IMG/VR virus record: IMGVR_UViG_3300006749_000038
Coordinates: 1-38,703 of that record
Source of the DNA: a virus
DNA: 38,703 bases
Reading direction: 5' to 3' (one strand)
The notes beneath the pieces were generated by a model that saw nothing but the letters and a program-made list of their open reading frames with translations, ran no database searches and was not told the origin of the DNA. Positions 6,001 to 38,703 of the stretch are shown here, in pieces. How positions within the stretch are numbered: the stretch's first letter is position 1; the number at the start of each line of letters is the position of its first letter. The translations under genes were made by a program, and so were the position numbers.

Positions 6001-9000
6001 AATCCTTGTTGTATCTGATAATCCGTCTTTTGTAACTTCTATAGTTAATGGTAATTTTGATTTAGTACTACTTACTGTTGAACTAAAAGTAATACTACCA
6101 GATACTTGGCCAGATCCATTTGTTACATCTGCAACTAATGTAGGATCTGATAATGTAGTTCCAGATGAATCTTTAATAGTTAAATCACCAGTACCAATAG
6201 TATCTGACAAATTTTGTTGATTAATTATAATTAATATATCATCATCTAAAGCTGTAGTTGAAGAGGCACTAGGAAATGAAAATACTTGAGAGTCGGTTGT
6301 TAAAACTAATGTTTTAGCTGTGCTTCCAGATTCACCTGTTTTTGATTTAGCTAAATTCATTGTTTTGGTTAAACTAACACTAGCACTAACTGCGGTAAAA
6401 TTGATAGATCCTGAATCGTGACTCATTCCTGTAACAGTTAATGAATTACTTGAGCTTGTAGCAGTAACTCCATTAGAATTAGATCCGGTAAATGTAAAGC
6501 TAGATGTAACATTATCTAAACCTAAAAATACTATCATTTCGGTAGTGCCAGTAGAAAAGTCTGGTACTGTACCGTCTGCAGAAGCTGGAAATGTATGAGA
6601 CTCATTAGTTAAAAATGCAGTTATCGATGCTTGTCCGTCTGCTCCTGTTGCTCCATCAGACCCGTCTGAGCCAGATGATCCTCCTTCTAATTTAAAGATT
6701 CTAGTTGTATCACTAACACTATCACGAGCTACTTCAATTGTTAAAGGAAGTTTAGTTTTATTCCCTCCAACTGTACCGCTAAATGTAATACTACCCGAAA
6801 CTTGACCTGTTCCTGATGTAACGTCTGTTATTAAACTAGGATTAGTTAATGTATTACCGCCAGAATCTTTTATGGTAATATTACTAGAAACTACGGCTGA
6901 ATCTAAATTTTGTTGATTAATAATAAATAATATGTCGTCATCAATTGCATCGCTACTAGACGCAGATGGAAATGAAAATACTTGAGAATCAGTTGTTAAT
7001 GTAATTAATTTTGCACTACTGCCAGGATCTCCGTCAGATCCAGCTTTTGACTTAGCTAACGACATGATTTTAGTTAATGATGTACTTCCGCTCGTTGCTG
7101 TTATGTTAATTGATCCAGTATCACTTGTTAATCCTGTTACTGTAATAGTATTATTTGTTATATTAGAACTAACTCCTGTTCCATTTGTTCTGGAAAATGA
7201 ATAACTGCTTGTTACATTAGTAATACCTTCAAAGACAATCATATCAGTTGAGCCACCATCGAATGATGATATAGTTCCTGATTCATCTGCAGAGAATGTA
7301 TGTGATTCATTTGTTAAGAATGCTGTTACTGCATCTATACCGTCTGCTCCAGCTGCACCTGCTGCTCCGTCAGAACCAGACGCTCCTGCTGATCCACCTT
7401 CAACTTTAAATAACGACGTAGTGTCTGTTAATGAGTCTCCAGAAACTTCAATTGATACTGGAAAATTATCTTTATCTGAATTTAATCCTCCTCCAGATAA
7501 TGCTCCTGCAAATGTTATACTACCACTTACAATTCCACTAACTAAACCTGCAGAGTTAAATGATATACTATTTGTGTCAAAATCAAATCCAGTAACATTT
7601 CCTCCTTGTGCAGTTGTGATAGTAACGTTACTTGCTGATATGCTGGCAGTTAAATTTTGTTGAGCTATACTAAATATTATATTTGATGGTGTTGCTAAAT
7701 TTGATGAAGCTGATGCAAATGCCATTACTTGTGAATCAGTTGTTAATATTAATGATTTTGCTGTATTTGATGCAGTTGCTTCATTTATAGCATCATCAAC
7801 TGTTTGTCCTGATTCTAATCGTAATTGTCCTCTAACTGTTAAAGCTGATCCATCCCATGTTAATTTGTCACCTAATGAAAAATTAGATCCTGAATCTACA
7901 TAAAACCCAGTATCTGAATTTGCGTGATTACCAGCTCCAATATATAATTTACTAGATTCCATTTCTATACCAGCAATAGATCCAGTATTAGCTATAATAC
8001 CACCTTGTAAAAATACATTATCTGTTGCTAAACCAAATCCAGGTGTAGGATTTCCAAATACATAATCAGAATTTGCTAATCCACTTAAATCTCCTAAACG
8101 AACTTTTAAATCAACATCATATAATCCACTTCCTGTTCTTTCTACAATATCTATAAAAGGAGTATTAGAATCTCTTGGATTTGCGTTCATTTTAATATAA
8201 CCGCTACCACTTAATCCTGTTGAAACTATAACTTGTCCTTCGTCATATGATTGTGATGTTGATGCTAAATCTCCTACAAATGATCCAGCTGATCCAGAAC
8301 CATATCCACGTTGAATATAAATTCTACCATGCACTTCATCTGCGTTTGAATTATTACCATCTACTGATGCAGATTCTACTAAAAGATATTCTGTCTGAAA
8401 TCCAGTTCCATCAACTTTTTTTGCTAATAATATTTCTCCAACAGTGAATCCGGATGCGTTTGCAACTGACATTGTTGTATCATTTGCAGTAACATTTGAT
8501 CCAGATATTGTTGTTGCGTTAGTAACCCATAATTGACCGCCAACTGCGTTTACTGATTCTTTTTCGAATGTAGTTGTTCTTAATGTACCTCTAATTCTTA
8601 CATTTTCAAATTCTGCAGTACCATTTCCTTCAGATGAAATTTTCCATCCTTTAAAGCCACTAGCAAAATCTCTTGTTTGCAAAATACCTTGTGGCTTCAT
8701 TATAAGATTACCACCTTGTATTGATGCAGTAGTAATATCCCATCCGCCAATGGATGCAGATCTAAATATAGCTAATCCTTGATCGGATATTGATGATGAT
8801 GCATTAGTTGGTGTTGACGGAGATCCTCCAATTGTAGCTGGTGTCTGAATACTGTTTGCTGTAACGGAACCTAATATAGTTACTCCGTCTGTAATTGTAC
8901 CACCCTCTAATAATACTCTAGAAGCTGTAATATTACCATCTGCTTTTAGTCGTAATTCAGAGTCTGCAGATCTTATTTCGTTAGGATTAATAACAAATCC

Positions 9001-16045: not shown

Positions 16046-16594
16046 TTACCAATCGATCATTACTAAATTACCATTCCAATCCATAATATTATCTGGTTTA
16101 AAATCTAATGATAATTCTAAATCGCCGATTCCTGTGTCTTTAACTTGTTGTTCTAACGCACTTATAAAACTAGCTAGTTTTTGATTAATATTTCTAGCTC
16201 CATTATTATTAAAATAATCAAAAATACTTGTTTCAATACCTTGTTGTCTTGCATAGTTTTTATAATTTTCATAAAATGTTTCTATTTCTGTAAACATAGA
16301 TGCTGATAATTTATTTGCTCGCTTCATAATATACATTTTATTATTATCTGTATAGATTACTGGAATAAATGCGTTATATTTATCATATTGTCCAACAATA
16401 ACATCTGCAACTGCAACTTCATCTGGTTCTGATGTTATTTTCATTAATAAATCTTCTCCATCTATAGTATAAACTTTTCCATTATCACCACTATCAAAAA
16501 ATTGAAAATTTTTATTTCGTATTTTTGATAATATTCTTTCTGATTCTATTTCAGAAATTTCTTTTAATATATTTGATAATTTAATCAAGTTCAT
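16046..16594 (-). CDS. Minimal kinase-fold protein
   Basis: This 182-residue protein has the landmarks of the protein kinase/aminoglycoside phosphotransferase fold. They are a glycine loop SGDNGKVY (35-42), a lysine in LLMKIT (Lys52), a hinge-like YIMKRAN, a catalytic loop LDFKPDNIM (Asp164, Asn169), and a metal-binding IDW (Asp181) in place of DFG. The chain ends one residue after that Asp, so the activation segment and the rest of the C-lobe are missing. The start is the ATG at 16594; a TTG 42 nt upstream would lengthen the overlap with the preceding gene to 56 nt. The first 12 residues, MNLIKLSNILKE, resemble the start of the endolysin and a T4-type capsid-targeting peptide. It overlaps the end of the LamG protein gene by 14 nt. 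Substrate and activity are unknown; it could phosphorylate a host protein or be a pseudokinase. Confidence 0.7.
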   Translation of the reverse strand: MNLIKLSNILKEISEIESERILSKIRNKNFQFFDSGDNGKVYTIDGEDLLMKITSEPDEVAVADVIVGQYDKYNAFIPVIYTDNNKMYIMKRANKLSASMFTEIETFYENYKNYARQQGIETSIFDYFNNNGARNINQKLASFISALEQQVKDTGIGDLELSLDFKPDNIMDWNGNLVMIDW

Positions 16595-32735: not shown

Positions 32736-33006
32736 TGAATTCGTTTTCTAAATTTGTGATTACATTTTTTAAAAATTCAAACGTTGTACCAGCTTCGTCA
32801 TCTGATTCAAACGCTCCTTTATGATCAATTTTTTTCATTTCATCATATGAATTTTTAATTTGATCGTACATGTATTGAGACATATCTTCTAATTCCTGGA
32901 TATATTCTTCTTGATCTGCTGTTACATTAGCTAATGTTAATGATCTCCATACAAAGTAAACAAATCCGCCTGATAAAATTATTAATCCTATTATTTCAAG
33001 TATCAT
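32707..33006 (-). CDS. Small single-span membrane protein
   Basis: A 99-residue protein with one N-terminal transmembrane helix (IIGLIILSGGFVYFVWRSL, about 5-23) and a charged, cytoplasmic helical tail. A KGAFESDDEAGTTFEFLKN stretch is the most distinctive part. It overlaps the HD gene by 4 nt (ATGA) and the sigma gene by 29 nt. I do not know its function; a link to the membrane during late expression is possible. Confidence 0.65.
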   Translation of the reverse strand: MILEIIGLIILSGGFVYFVWRSLTLANVTADQEEYIQELEDMSQYMYDQIKNSYDEMKKIDHKGAFESDDEAGTTFEFLKNVITNLENEFNGEKEEKVK

Positions 33007-33779
33007 GATTCTCCAAATGTTTTAAATATATCTGTAATTGATTTATCAATATCTGGGTTTTGTTCTGCTAAATTTTTAATTGCTGTTTTTTTAGTAGCTT
33101 TTGTTTTTGCACTAACAGGCTTTGGTGAGTTATTTTTATGTGATCTCCATCTTTCATATTCTATTTGAGATGCCATATGATCTGCATGATGTAATAATAA
33201 AGGTAAATTAGTTTTTAATTTAGCTTGAGCAGATCTTGCAATAAAATATGGTTTATTAGCATCATCATATATACCGTCATGTATTCTAATAGCTTGAAAT
33301 TCATTCCATGACATTTGAACTTGATATTTTTGAAGCAAATATATTGAAAGATCTGGTACCATTGTGAATGGAATATTTTCATTATGTTTATACATTCTTC
33401 CCATATTTTTTCTATGCCAATCAGATGTTTCTACTTGATATACTTCTCTTCCTTTACCTGGAAATCCGCATTTACCTAAATCATGATGCATTGCTGCAAA
33501 CATCATTTCATTATATTCATATCCAGACATATCAGATCCCATACTTTCCCAAGAATCATATAATTTTTCTACACAATCCATTACTCTAAGAACATGATCT
33601 ACATACCCTCCAGCAAAAGCATTATGATAATGAGCAACAGAAGAAGCAGGCATCATTACAATCCTTTCTTCATAATCGTCATATAATTTATTTAATTTAT
33701 CTGCTCTATCTGAAAATAAAGTATTAACTCTACTTCTATATTCATCCCAGTTGGATTTAATTTTTTCTGCTTCTAACAT
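33003..33779 (-). CDS. HD-domain phosphohydrolase
   Basis: This 258-residue protein has the metal-dependent HD fold. A first histidine lies in GGYVDHVLRV (His62), the HD doublet in AAMHHDLGK (His99-Asp100), and a distal Asp in LLLHHADHMAS (Asp200). It probably hydrolyses a nucleotide or cyclic nucleotide; the substrate is not visible. Inserted aromatic segments (YQVETSDWHRKNMGRMYKH) are not typical of dGTPases. The C-terminus is Lys-rich. It overlaps the membrane-protein gene by 4 nt. Possible roles are nucleotide-pool control or degradation of host signalling nucleotides used in defence; neither is shown by the sequence. Confidence 0.8.
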   Translation of the reverse strand: MLEAEKIKSNWDEYRSRVNTLFSDRADKLNKLYDDYEERIVMMPASSVAHYHNAFAGGYVDHVLRVMDCVEKLYDSWESMGSDMSGYEYNEMMFAAMHHDLGKCGFPGKGREVYQVETSDWHRKNMGRMYKHNENIPFTMVPDLSIYLLQKYQVQMSWNEFQAIRIHDGIYDDANKPYFIARSAQAKLKTNLPLLLHHADHMASQIEYERWRSHKNNSPKPVSAKTKATKKTAIKNLAEQNPDIDKSITDIFKTFGES

Positions 33780-33958: not shown

Positions 33959-34990
33959 TTATGTTATTACTTGACCGGTAGGTCCTTGATGTGTAGGTTT
34001 ATCTTCTTCTTCATAATGTAAACCCTCATTTCCATTTTGACCTATAATATCCATTCTTCTTTCAGCTTCTTCTTCAAGAAAATCTTTGGTATCAGAATAA
34101 GGTGCTGCAGTTGCATCGGATGGATGTGGAGGTCTAAAAGCTTCTGGATTACTATTTTTTATAACTTTTTCTCCGTATATATTTTCTTTTATATTTTCAG
34201 AAATAATATCAAAAGCCTTATTTGAAGCAATTAATAATATTACAGCTAATGGATCAAATACAAATATAAAAATTAATATAAACCAATTTACAACTTGATT
34301 CATTGGACGATCTAATAATTCAGAAACGTATTTTAGTGGTCCAATTTCGTTAGTAACTGTAGAATTAGATTCTATATCTAATATACTTATATCTAATGAT
34401 GTTACAGAATCAGTTAATGCTTCAATTTTTAATGAAACATTATTTCGTTGTTGTTTTATATCATTTAACTGTGATGTTAAAACTTTTCTTGTTCTACTTG
34501 ATGTTGATGTCAATATCTGACCTGTTTCTTTATCTTTCCATTGTACTGTATTATTAGAAAGTCCTTTTGTTAATTCAGATATTGAATTAGCTAATTGATT
34601 CTTTTCTTGTATATAACCTGTTAGTTGTTCTTGATATCTTTGTTTTTTAAGATCAATAATAGTTATTTCTTTATCCATTACAGACAACTCATTAGCTGTA
34701 GTTTGATATGCAGCAGTTAAAAATCCATATATACCTAACGATGTTATAAACATTAATATAATAACAGCAATTGTTAAATATGTTTTAAGTAAAAAATTTA
34801 TATGTTTCCAAAATCTATGTAAATATGTAGCAGTTATTAATTTAGCAGCTTCTAAAGTTCCTGCCATTATAGCTACTGCAACTGCTTGTGCTGAAAATAA
34901 TTTACTAATTCCAAAAACACTATAATATGCTGCACTACCTGCTAATGATAATGCTGTGATTAATACAATGTATGAAAATATACGATTCAT
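33959..34990 (-). CDS. Multi-span membrane protein with periplasmic-size coiled coil
   Basis: This 343-residue protein has three N-terminal transmembrane helices (about 5-25, 31-50 and 67-95). A long coiled coil (about 100-215, with repeated LKKQRYQEQLTGYIQEKNQL and SISELTKGL) follows, then a fourth transmembrane segment (WFILIFIFVFDPLAVILLI, about 235-255). A polar tail rich in Pro, Glu and Asp ends the protein. It shares a 4-nt overlap with the 60-residue gene. Its position near the wall-active genes suggests an envelope function such as lysis or superinfection exclusion. I do not recognise a named family. Confidence 0.7.
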   Translation of the reverse strand: MNRIFSYIVLITALSLAGSAAYYSVFGISKLFSAQAVAVAIMAGTLEAAKLITATYLHRFWKHINFLLKTYLTIAVIILMFITSLGIYGFLTAAYQTTANELSVMDKEITIIDLKKQRYQEQLTGYIQEKNQLANSISELTKGLSNNTVQWKDKETGQILTSTSSRTRKVLTSQLNDIKQQRNNVSLKIEALTDSVTSLDISILDIESNSTVTNEIGPLKYVSELLDRPMNQVVNWFILIFIFVFDPLAVILLIASNKAFDIISENIKENIYGEKVIKNSNPEAFRPPHPSDATAAPYSDTKDFLEEEAERRMDIIGQNGNEGLHYEEEDKPTHQGPTGQVIT

Positions 34991-35185: not shown

Positions 35186-35341
35186 TTATTTTTTAAATGC
35201 TAACAAAAATTCTCTAGCTGCAAATCCAAATGCAATACCAGAATAAAATACATTTTTGTCTAGAAGTAGCAATATTGCAATGCTTCCGATTGCAGCTGCT
35301 TTAAACCATGATGAGTTTACTATGTTTTTAATTGTTTCCAT
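35186..35341 (-). CDS. 51-residue membrane protein, holin candidate
   Basis: A short frame from the ATG at 35341, preceded by AAAGAAAGGA and a GATATTTAT motif. It reads METIKNIVNSSWFKAAAIGS, then a hydrophobic IAILLLL, a DKN turn and a second hydrophobic stretch (VFYSGIAFGFAA), with a basic end. Two short membrane segments joined by a turn, beside a divergent endolysin gene, fit a small holin, but nothing proves it. It is the first gene of the minus-strand unit running to the sigma gene. Confidence 0.55.
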   Translation of the reverse strand: METIKNIVNSSWFKAAAIGSIAILLLLDKNVFYSGIAFGFAAREFLLAFKK

Positions 35342-35426: not shown

Positions 35427-36437
35427 ATGATTAAATTAAAACATTTATTACAAGAACAAACATCTATACTTCGTAAAGGTAGTCGTGGTAAAAAAGTTGA
35501 AGAATTGCAAAAACAATTAATTCAATTAGGATTACTGCCAGAACTACAATCGAGTGGAAGAACATCTGCAGATGGAATTTTTGGATCTGGAACAAAGGCA
35601 GCAGTAGTAGCTTTTCAAAAAAATCCAAAAAATAAAGATGATGATGGAAAAAAATTAAAACCAGATGGGATTGTAGGACCTAAAACATATCAAGCATTAA
35701 AACAATCTATTAGTAAATCAACTGAATCTCCAAATAAATCAACAGATAAAAAAGATCAATATTTTACAGATTTAGATCCTACAAGACAAGGCAAAGGTGA
35801 AATTACTTTTGACAAAAATTGGACAGATATAATTGATTCTACAAGACGAGTTGATATATGTAAAGCTCCTGAATTTGCAAATAAATGTGCTAGTTTTGTA
35901 AATGCTTTAGATCCTTCAGTTTCTACCTTAGGTGATGCATGGACTGCATATGGTAGAAGTCAAGGAGGTAAAAAAGCAACCTATAATGTTATGACAAAAA
36001 TGTCACCAAGCCAAACAAAACTATATGATACATATTATGATATGAATTTACCTAATCAACAAAGTGGCGGTGGAGCATATGTACAAAAATTAGGTAAATT
36101 AATGGGTAGTATTACAAAAGGTAAGATTCCTCCTAAAAATATTCTTACTCCAGGATCTCATGTTGGAATATATTGGCCTACTAGTAGATATCATCAAAAA
36201 GCTTTTATTGATTCTTCAAAAATAAAAAAATATTCTCCATTTAATACTCATGTAGGATTAGTAATAGCAGTTAAAGATGGTGTTCCAATTATATTACATG
36301 AAGTTGATGGTCAAGGAAGAGCAGAACCGTATACTAATTTATTTATTTCATGGGTAAAATCAGATATGGGATATTCAAAATTTGTAAAAAGTGCTGATGC
36401 ATATTTACAAAAGTTTATTAATTGGGCTAATTCTTAA
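35427..36437 (+). CDS. Endolysin: PG-binding domain plus NlpC/P60- or CHAP-like hydrolase
   Basis: This 336-residue protein is the only plus-strand gene. Residues 15-92 form a PG_binding_1 domain (LRKGSRGKKVEELQKQLIQLG, SADGIFGSGTKAAVVAFQ, PDGIVGPKTYQAL). After a linker, residues 140-300 look like a papain-like wall hydrolase: a Cys in ANKCASFVNAL (Cys154), PGSHVGIYW, and a His in NTHVGLVIAV (His275) followed by ILHEVDGQG. No signal peptide is present. The first ten residues MIKLKHLLQE form a short amphipathic peptide very like the start of the kinase-fold protein (see findings). Its end shares four bases with the convergent L,D-transpeptidase-like gene. The role is lysis or virion-borne wall penetration; the exact bond cut is unknown. 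Confidence 0.8.
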   Translation: MIKLKHLLQEQTSILRKGSRGKKVEELQKQLIQLGLLPELQSSGRTSADGIFGSGTKAAVVAFQKNPKNKDDDGKKLKPDGIVGPKTYQALKQSISKSTESPNKSTDKKDQYFTDLDPTRQGKGEITFDKNWTDIIDSTRRVDICKAPEFANKCASFVNALDPSVSTLGDAWTAYGRSQGGKKATYNVMTKMSPSQTKLYDTYYDMNLPNQQSGGGAYVQKLGKLMGSITKGKIPPKNILTPGSHVGIYWPTSRYHQKAFIDSSKIKKYSPFNTHVGLVIAVKDGVPIILHEVDGQGRAEPYTNLFISWVKSDMGYSKFVKSADAYLQKFINWANS

Positions 36438-37039
36438 CCAATTACATATATTATAGTTCCAATTTTACAAAGATCAATAATTTGATTGTTATATTTTTTA
36501 TCGGTAGTAAAACAACCTAAACTTCTTCCTATACGTCCATTTCTTTTAAAATATGAATCAGATGCATATTTAGACGAATGAAATCTAATACCTCTTTGAT
36601 ATACATTGTCATTTACATTATCTTCAAGACCATATATATTCATAGCTCTACCAATTACAGAATTTGTATATTCATTACCAGTAATAAATTTTCCTATACA
36701 ACTCATATTGCTGTTATGTTTATTACTAAACTTAGTAGAAAAATTCCAACCTGAATTTTTACCGTGACCTACTCTACAATTAATTACAACATTACCATCT
36801 TGTACAACCCATAATCTCTTTTTTGAAGACGATTGTGAATAATCTATTAATATAACTTCTCCTGATTCTGGAATATGTTGTTTGAGCTCTTTAGGTATCG
36901 GCGTATGTTTGATTTTAGACATAACAGGTCTTTCAATAAAATTACTTTGAAATACCATTAATGATTCTATATTATTAAATTTTAATATGCCACACCCAGA
37001 AAAGATAATAGTAATACATATAATTAATAATTTTTTCAT
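36434..37039 (-). CDS. L,D-transpeptidase-like lipoprotein (YkuD_2 type)
   Basis: This 201-residue protein begins with a lipoprotein signal, LLIICITIIFSGC, with the lipidated Cys at position 16. The rest follows the murein L,D-transpeptidase catalytic domain family pattern. It has RLWVVQDGNVV, a RVGHGKNSG loop, FSNKHNSNMSCIGKF, a long insertion ending at RGIRFHSSKYASD with His154, and the catalytic GRIGRSLGC with Cys176. Host enzymes of this kind make or break 3-3 peptidoglycan links or attach proteins to the wall. In a phage it may modify the wall for lysis timing or against competing phages. It converges on the endolysin gene with stop codons overlapping in TTAA. It lies 54 bp after the exported transglycosylase. 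Confidence 0.8.
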   Translation of the reverse strand: MKKLLIICITIIFSGCGILKFNNIESLMVFQSNFIERPVMSKIKHTPIPKELKQHIPESGEVILIDYSQSSSKKRLWVVQDGNVVINCRVGHGKNSGWNFSTKFSNKHNSNMSCIGKFITGNEYTNSVIGRAMNIYGLEDNVNDNVYQRGIRFHSSKYASDSYFKRNGRIGRSLGCFTTDKKYNNQIIDLCKIGTIIYVIG

Positions 37040-37093
37040 ATCTTATTTTTTTTCTTTATAATAAGAATTATACATGAAAAATCCAACCTTTAA

Positions 37094-37582
37094 CTAAAGT
37101 TTTTTACTCATTTCTATTTTTACTTTTTCCCAATATTGTAAAGTACGTTTACGTTTATAACCTTTAGGTCCTCCATTCCAATTTCTTGCTATTTTCTCAT
37201 CAGAAGAATTTGTATGATGAAAGTCTTTCCAAATATAAAACATTTGAATAGATTTTTTTCTACTCCATCTATCTTTATATTTAAATCGTAGTGTATCCTT
37301 TTGTTTCTTTAATATTCTATTAACTTCTCTTACCATTACTGGTCTAATTTGTAAACATCCTATGGATGGAAGTATCAAATGCCTATCACCTATACAACTA
37401 TCATTTCCTCTACTTTCAACTTGAATTAATGCTTCAATTAGTTTATTATCTTGTATTTCTTTATTTTTAATTTTTATATGATAATTTTCAATTTCAATTG
37501 GTATACAAAATTCAGATTTATTTTTTGGAATAGAAGTACTTCCGATTAACAATATAAATAATAATATTATTATTTTATTCAT
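37094..37582 (-). CDS. Exported SLT-like lytic transglycosylase
   Basis: This 162-residue protein has an N-terminal hydrophobic signal (IIILLFILLIGSTS). The SLT/goose-lysozyme pattern follows: ALIQVESRGND with the catalytic Glu56, SIGCLQIRP in the position of the usual SxGLMQI, and a C-terminal ARNWNGGPKGY. It cleaves the glycan backbone in the periplasm. It is followed by the L,D-transpeptidase-like gene, and the pair forms an envelope cassette next to the endolysin. It could be a late lysis aid or a wall-opening factor for assembly. Confidence 0.8.
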   Translation of the reverse strand: MNKIIILLFILLIGSTSIPKNKSEFCIPIEIENYHIKIKNKEIQDNKLIEALIQVESRGNDSCIGDRHLILPSIGCLQIRPVMVREVNRILKKQKDTLRFKYKDRWSRKKSIQMFYIWKDFHHTNSSDEKIARNWNGGPKGYKRKRTLQYWEKVKIEMSKKL

Positions 37583-37591
37583 AATATAAGT

Positions 37592-38092
37592 TTAAGTAAA
37601 TTTTCTAAGAAAATCTTTTTGTTTGTCTATAGCTTGTTCTAATTCATTGTTTTCAGCTGACTTTTTGATTTTTCTATTTGATCGTATGTTGTTTGTAACG
37701 CCATTCCCAGAATCATTCGTTGTCCTACTGTTAGATCCTGTATTTGATATTGTGTTGCTAATAGATCCAGGAAGTCGTTTCCTTGTTTTATCGTCATTTC
37801 GTGTTTCAATTGTTGAAACTCCGGCTTTGCCATTATTTGATCTATTTTTTGAAGTCTCGTAGTCGATTGATCCGGCATAGTAGCTTGAATATTCTTTGAT
37901 TTGAATACCGCAAGGATACGTGTACTTGCCTGTTTTAACCATGTAAGTAATTTTTTCATTTGCTTTTAATATTTTTTTAACAACCCCCCAACCAGACTCT
38001 CCTAAAAATTCCCATTTAACAATATCTCCAATATTGAATTGTTGTTTTTTAAATTTTTCTTGTATATATTTAGGTAATTTTTTCTTTTTCAT
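37592..38092 (-). CDS. Basic SH3-like protein with an overprinted C-terminal half
   Basis: This 166-residue protein has an N-terminal 60 residues (FNIGDIVKWEFLGESGWGVV, then KILKANEKITYMVKTG) that look like a small SH3/KOW-type beta domain. From about residue 80 to 145 the sequence is Ser/Asn/Thr/Arg-rich and low in hydrophobics, because the same bases also encode a second frame (37639-37959). The C-terminus (ELEQAIDKQKDFLRKF) returns to a normal helix. It overlaps the 67-residue gene by 4 nt. Function unknown. Confidence 0.6.
   Translation of the reverse strand: MKKKKLPKYIQEKFKKQQFNIGDIVKWEFLGESGWGVVKKILKANEKITYMVKTGKYTYPCGIQIKEYSSYYAGSIDYETSKNRSNNGKAGVSTIETRNDDKTRKRLPGSISNTISNTGSNSRTTNDSGNGVTNNIRSNRKIKKSAENNELEQAIDKQKDFLRKFT
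37639..37959 (-). CDS. Overprinted ORF nested in the 166-residue gene (+1 frame)
   Basis: A 106-residue frame on the same strand, shifted by one base, lies wholly inside the larger gene from its codon 45 onward. It reads like a real helical protein: KKLLTWLKQASTRILAVF, LQKIDQIMAKPEFQQLKHEM, NDFLDLLATQYQI and RMILGMALQTTYDQIEKS. G+C counted over 37681-37920 is 90 of 240 (37.5%), against 13-23% in nearby single-frame lines, which is what dual coding would impose. No strong ribosome site precedes its ATG. No family is recognised. It is not a spanin pair: neither product has a membrane anchor or lipobox. Confidence 0.55.
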   Translation of the reverse strand: MKKLLTWLKQASTRILAVFKSKNIQATMPDQSTTRLQKIDQIMAKPEFQQLKHEMTIKQGNDFLDLLATQYQIQDLTVGQRMILGMALQTTYDQIEKSKSQLKTMN

Positions 38093-38297: not shown

Positions 38298-38703
38298 TTA
38301 TTTAATTATTAATCGCTTTGGTGCTCTATCTTTAGCATATGGAATATCAATTGCTAATAATCCTTTTTCCATTTTTGCTCCTGCTTTAGTTAAATCTAAT
38401 TCTTTAGATATTTTCCAAGCAAAATCAAAAGCTCTTTTAGCGATACCTTTGTGAATAAATTCACGCTTTTCTTCTTTACCTTTGTCATATCGAACTCTTA
38501 AAGTTTCTCCTTCTGTTGATATTTCAATATCTGATTTTTCTAAACCTACTGCAGCAATTTCAAATTGTATACCACTATCAGTTGTAAATATATCAACTGG
38601 ATAATTCATTTTATTTGATGTTACTGGTAAAAATTTAGATGTTTGATCGAAAAAGTTTTTCCAAACTAAATCGAAATCATTGAGTAATAATGTTTCTTTA
38701 AAA
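38298..38703 (-). CDS. Hsp20-type small heat-shock protein, 5' end beyond the window
   Basis: The frame is open to the right edge, so the ATG at 38609 is internal: 31 more codons upstream read FKETLLLNDFDLVWKNFFDQ then TSKFLPVTSNK. The upstream part FDLVWKNFFDQ matches the phenylalanine-rich start of phage Hsp20 proteins. The alpha-crystallin core follows with VDIFTTDSGIQFEIAAVG, KSDIEISTEGETLRV, FDFAWKISKELDLTKA and the hallmark GLLAIDIP. It is a chaperone common in T4-like marine phages, thought to guard late structural proteins. The start codon lies outside. Confidence 0.85.
   Translation of the reverse strand, partial: FKETLLLNDFDLVWKNFFDQTSKFLPVTSNKMNYPVDIFTTDSGIQFEIAAVGLEKSDIEISTEGETLRVRYDKGKEEKREFIHKGIAKRAFDFAWKISKELDLTKAGAKMEKGLLAIDIPYAKDRAPKRLIIK

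Follow-up and report, generated by a model that had tools for sequence, protein, structure and literature searches.

The window, i.e. the whole 38.7 kb IMG/VR record that was analysed, comes from a large phage of marine origin. It encodes baseplate wedge proteins, and its nearest cultured relatives are the Flavobacterium Immutovirus and the Microcystis phage Mel-JY01. These two observations assign it to a T4-like phage, as the original prediction had proposed, with a host most likely among the Bacteroidota. Since the record is a fragment, the absence of a gene cannot be argued from it. An L,D-transpeptidase-family gene (LDT; 36434-37039, minus strand) lies between the gene of an exported lysozyme-superfamily protein (37094-37582, minus strand) and a convergent gene on the plus strand (35427-36437). 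Both minus-strand genes had been described as abutting an endolysin gene; in fact, the lysozyme gene is separated from the convergent gene by LDT, and only LDT touches the latter, by a 4-base tail-to-tail overlap (36434-36437). The identical overlap was found in five related loci (L043, L108, L003, L045 and L047). Elsewhere in the window, positions 33003-33779 encode an HD-domain phosphohydrolase-like protein (phrog_5889), the best 80 of whose 145 viral-contig matches were 72-98% identical, and a phage-encoded Hsp20 small heat-shock protein lies at 38298-38609, its start being perhaps upstream, past the window end.

The L,D-transpeptidase-family protein and its exported neighbour

The 201-residue LDT product is an exported member of the YkuD_2 family and a probable lipoprotein. 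When compared with Pfam, it matched PF13645 (YkuD_2) with an E-value of 2.7e-42 and a score of 144.5 bits, well above the gathering cutoff of 27, and the YkuD family with an E-value of 1.6e-5. A signal sequence (residues 1-15, MKKLLIICITIIFSG; 36995-37039, minus strand) precedes Cys16, the last residue of a probable FSGC lipobox. The active-site motif is GRIGRSLGC; the nucleophile Cys176 within GRSLGC is encoded at 36512-36514 and the catalytic His154 at 36578-36580, both on the minus strand. In an alignment of 14 phage and bacterial homologues, His154, Ser173, Gly175 and Cys176 were unchanged. The lipobox protein with a YkuD_2 GRxGRSxGC site and a catalytic His, which had been read from the letters of the DNA, was thus borne out, and none of the 14 sequences lacked either catalytic residue, including Cys176, whose conservation had been singled out for verification.

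The AlphaFold model of LDT, with pLDDT values mostly around 90 over residues 61-200, adopts the YkuD fold. Its best PDB matches in Foldseek were the L,D-transpeptidases LdtMt1, LdtMt2 and YkuD (E-values of 6e-7 and above, with query TM-scores of only 0.43-0.47). LDT is 67% identical to its homologue in L043, with a dN/dS of 0.26 overall and about 0.19 in the catalytic part; it is a real, maintained gene under purifying selection. A classical ISGC lipobox is present in the L043 homologue, and the L108 homologue has a signal sequence without a clear lipobox, so that lipid anchoring is probable in two of the three phage proteins.

Lpg1697 of Legionella and the periplasmic homologues of Bacteroidota share with LDT the Pfam family, the His/Ser/Cys site, the signal peptide and the absence of LysM. 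LDT differs from them in being phage-encoded and part of a separate phage clade, in having GCF instead of GCP at the motif Cys, in its shorter N-terminal region and in its convergent gene pair. Deletion of Lpg1697 led to envelope phenotypes, a muropeptide change being not detected (PMC10117105), and in the literature consulted on the family no biochemically shown transpeptidation by a PF13645 member was found. YkuD proteins variously cross-link, anchor or cleave (PMC10434034, PMC8263019). Editing of the host wall by an exported phage enzyme of L,D-transpeptidase type is still the best reading of this protein. Toxicity of LDT itself, akin to that of the T6SS effector Tlde1 with its altered L,D-transpeptidase fold, the neighbours then being tolerance factors, appears very improbable. 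YkuD-fold toxins do exist (PMC9638812), and an exported protein reaches the wall; however, the YkuD_2 domain is an ordinary one, the anchoring of two of three homologues is probably by lipid, and a specific immunity-like neighbour was not found.

The family is rare among phages. Among 50,697 INPHARED records, YkuD_2 had a single match, in the Pf-like OQ658363. This record and the IMG/VR contig L145 were both rejected as sources of a phage YkuD_2, the genes concerned being P. aeruginosa chromosomal genes beside phage DNA. Apart from one Pseudomonas chromosome fragment, scans of IMG/VR detected LDT only in two more lineages belonging to this phage group, where it occupies the corresponding position; these scans were pattern-based and of limited sensitivity, homologues being recovered with patterns from the alignment and none with the poor patterns from the single LDT protein. 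A phage YkuD_2 enzyme was not described in the literature searched, subscription papers being mostly beyond reach. In the phylogeny, the three phage LDTs formed a clade of their own (support 97/96), separate from the 55 remaining sequences, which were essentially bacterial; LDT is thus established as a phage gene. YkuD_2 occurs in 107 of 296 Bacteroidota genomes, and these data fit an old acquisition. In the collections searched, a phage gene of this family was thus essentially the property of one lineage.

The neighbouring gene product (162 aa) is an exported protein of the lysozyme superfamily. It had been taken for a signal-peptide SLT enzyme: export was retained, but its SLT (PF01464) score of 16.8 bits falls under the cutoff of 21.3, so that the SLT label is not secure. 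A profile built from five sequences of the family pointed instead to i-type (destabilase) lysozymes as the nearest group, with PDB matches at E-values of 5e-6 to 1e-4 in which only the C-terminal 30-55 residues or so align. The likeness consists of a C-terminal NGGPxG...TxxYW region and, by eye, of QVES...GCLQI-like motifs; the significant alignment is limited to the C-terminal half.

The convergent gene and its N-terminal leader

The product of the convergent gene (336 aa) comprises a ten-residue leader, a PG_binding_1 domain (residues 20-91, 35484-35699; Pfam E-value of 2.8e-13) and a putative catalytic C-terminal domain (residues 132-336, 35820-36434), all on the plus strand. The latter (CASFVN...NTHVGLVIA) displays Cys/His motifs that look NlpC/CHAP-like by eye and is 46% identical to the C-terminal domain found in L043, the only other phage in which it was detected. 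It had no Pfam or PDB match, and its structure model (pLDDT 31) was discarded as evidence.

The leader, MIKLKHLLQE (35427-35456), follows the pattern MIKLKxLLxE, which was carried by about 40 protein families across the fetched loci. In two large relatives it was strongly enriched at protein N-termini: 7 of 204 proteins in G001 and 9 of 198 in G005, where shuffling gave expectations of 0.07 and 0.09, respectively, and none of the 926 and 897 internal Met positions fitted the pattern. Wall-directed domains, namely PG_binding_1, OmpA, glucosaminidase, tail lysozyme and YkuD, are found in some of these families. Two leader proteins are predicted in the Immuto phages, and a further window protein (16046-16594) begins with a related leader, MNLIKLSNILKE.

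The T4 capsid-targeting sequence is likewise a short N-terminal peptide with an L/I-x-E end that is borne by otherwise unrelated proteins (PMC9026906). The leader has both properties, and its occurrence as a ten-residue N-terminus with an L/I-x-E end in numerous unrelated proteins within one phage recalls the T4 internal proteins; the difference is that here it is found on peptidoglycan-binding proteins. By analogy with T4, leader proteins may be packaged in the head. The ten residues would then predict which proteins sit inside the virions of these phages.

Exchange of gene sets in a variable slot

About 130 related loci were collected with two flanking genes as anchors. The three genes occupy a slot bordered on one side by a conserved gene of 166 aa (37592-38092, minus strand), present in nearly all relatives, and on the other by a conserved membrane protein of 343 aa (33959-34990, minus strand), present in 70 related loci. 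In many relatives the slot is reduced to 214-434 bp and has no recognised cassette; among other relatives, about nine different gene sets occupy it. In every filled slot that was examined, a leader-type gene on one strand was opposed by genes for exported or membrane proteins on the other. A PADLOC search returned zero matches.

The original prediction regarded the exported SLT enzyme and the L,D-transpeptidase as one cassette, to be followed by their co-occurrence in related phages. This pairing was not conserved. The lysozyme recurs at 97% identity in L002-L004, where a C92 (YiiX-type) lipoprotein replaces LDT, and in L005/L006 the lysozyme is present and an LDT homologue was not detected, which makes five contigs with the lysozyme and no LDT. 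Conversely, in L043/L052 and L106/L108 the window lysozyme is missing and the LDT homologue has as its opposite-strand neighbour another leader-bearing protein, whose likeness to SLT was seen only by eye. LDT travels instead with the C-terminal domain encoded by the convergent gene, and the functional pairing should be redrawn accordingly. In L003, the C92 lipoprotein gene (6553-7201) carries an in-frame stop inside the signal sequence; it is intact in L002 and L004.

Three adjacent wall-directed genes could also constitute a joint set for lysis or wall opening, in which LDT, acting with the lysozyme and the convergent leader enzyme, would weaken the wall by exchange, L,D-carboxypeptidase or endopeptidase chemistry. 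There are precedents: the YkuD proteins DpaA and P. aeruginosa LdtPae3 cleave instead of cross-linking (PMC8263019, PMC10434034), and a weakly L,D-transpeptidase-like protein of a Vibrio Mu-like phage, lying in the endolysin position, was proposed as an endolysin by synteny (PMC9239132). In addition, the leader protein of L108 bears a YkuD domain. However, nothing in the slot was recognised as a holin, although the fragmentary window has a small, unassigned transmembrane ORF there at 35186-35341, and the annotated or likely endolysin-holin genes of relatives are found at a distance from it. Flavobacterium phage Immuto has an annotated endolysin-holin pair away from the slot; in G005, a homologous holin (E-value of 1.4e-51) lies far from it, beside a PG-binding-domain protein without leader which is likely the endolysin. 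Since these pairs sit elsewhere, the convergent gene is probably accessory and not the lysis endolysin, within the limits of an incomplete window. Its earlier designation as an endolysin is doubtful also in view of the leader, which is common to many unrelated phage proteins. The slot being empty in many relatives, it is dispensable for lysis there, and we consider a lysis function of the three genes somewhat unlikely.

Comparison of the window with its closest relatives by blastn showed how the slot changes. With L003, an identity of 97.5% extends from 38383 to 37021, through the lysozyme gene and the first LDT codons; the sequences are then unalignable down to 35621, and a stretch of 83% identity then covers the initial portion of the convergent gene. 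The block replaced relative to L002/L003 (35622-37020) thus contains LDT from about codon 7 and the sequence for the C-terminal portion of the convergent protein. A like picture was obtained with L108 and L110, whose flanks are 97.5% and 95.9% identical. In both exchanges, between near-identical phages with flank identities of 83-98%, the swap took in the exported gene as well as the facing gene's C-terminal half, while the partner's start, the leader and peptidoglycan-binding domain of the facing gene and the upstream genes were retained.

Furthermore, the window and L043, a second, diverged phage, have in common both LDT and the Cys/His C-terminal domain (E-value of 2.5e-53), the neighbouring lysozyme being different, and L045, L047 and L110 have in common another C-terminal domain together with a small membrane partner. 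A colicin-M-like reading of this other domain in L045/L110, made by eye, was unsupported in a profile search and was dropped. The pattern of a polymorphic system, in which a variable C-terminus and its partner are exchanged and the N-terminus is kept, was therefore seen in two events and in the co-inheritance, for which linkage alone could suffice. One crossover block is enough to move the 3' ends of two convergent genes, so that the joint exchange supports a functional tie without proving it. Nor is the pairing strict, as the LDT homologue of L108 faces a YkuD C-terminal domain in place of the Cys/His domain. The protein concerned (L108 5807-6799, minus strand) has the leader and PG_binding_1 and ends in YkuD with a Pfam E-value of 3.5e-18; another slot protein with leader and PG_binding_1, L058 2615-4372 (minus strand), has a YkuD-like HGT...SSGCIGVR end by eye only.

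The exchanges also bear on the possibility that LDT is an independent auxiliary gene of the host envelope, which by itself would stiffen the wall, repair the injection hole or block other phages, the slot being a hotspot for morons. The hypervariable and often empty slot is compatible with this, as are the frequency of YkuD_2 in Bacteroidota and the re-cross-linking of stressed E. coli walls by LdtD (PMC6428754). For free-standing morons, however, replacement together with the effector half and co-inheritance in L043 are unexpected, although linkage could explain them. An independent role is in our opinion unlikely.

Possible roles at the host wall

Tentatively, and with a probability of about 0.4, we propose that the slot houses a polymorphic module of T4-like Bacteroidota phages, composed of a wall effector and an envelope partner, in which LDT would be the wall-modifying partner that lessens the damage by matched wall enzymes. 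The convergent gene would supply the effector, a leader and peptidoglycan-binding protein with a C-terminal wall-active domain varying between phages, and the facing partner gene would change along with that domain. The most likely site of action of LDT would be the periplasm, where it would add 3-3 cross-links to the peptidoglycan stems of the host or cap donor tripeptides. In this way, the matched effector and the exported lysozyme could do less harm to the wall of the infected cell, whether the effector stems from the phage's own infection or is brought in by sister virions.

This module is favoured by the family, fold and active site of LDT, by the low dN/dS (0.19), the phage clade (97/96), the two joint replacements and the co-inheritance with L043. 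A second locus in relatives, where leader proteins are paired with exported CAP proteins, speaks for it as well. On the other side, enzymes would be unusual as immunity partners, and the absence of a detected muropeptide change upon Lpg1697 deletion, the crossover linkage and the L108 mismatch count against the module. Moreover, if the leader directs its protein to the head and thence to the host cytoplasm, the membrane would separate a peptidoglycan-cutting domain from its substrate.

In polymorphic toxin-immunity loci, contact-dependent inhibition being an example, the N-terminus is constant, and the C-terminal domain varies and is exchanged along with the partner gene beside it. The slot resembles them in the constant N-terminus and in the joint replacement of C-terminal domain and partner; it differs by its location in a T4-like phage, by genes that are convergent and not tandem and by the enzymes among the partners. 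Superinfection exclusion by T4 imm/sp offers another parallel, as Sp blocks the incoming gp5 lysozyme. There too, a phage envelope protein would shield the wall of the infected cell from virion wall enzymes; Sp is an inhibitor, whereas LDT is an enzyme of L,D-transpeptidase type to which such a role may be attributed. A more specific scenario is a wall weapon of phage against phage, with a head-packaged effector of swappable C-terminus and an envelope partner, re-cross-linking by LDT serving as an enzymatic 'immunity' against sister or rival virions; we hold it to be distinctly unlikely.

If LDT works, phages would be able to rebuild the host wall, beyond cutting it. A concrete and testable pairing is provided by the exchange of LDT together with the wall-active domain that faces it.

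Finally, relatives have a second variable locus, in which the gene of a leader-type (MIKLK...) protein, 309-447 aa long and variable at its C-terminus, is followed by that of an exported protein, usually of the CAP/SCP family. It was seen at L012 438-2105, L017 3558-5294, L041 3548-5310 and L107 3032-4489, among others.
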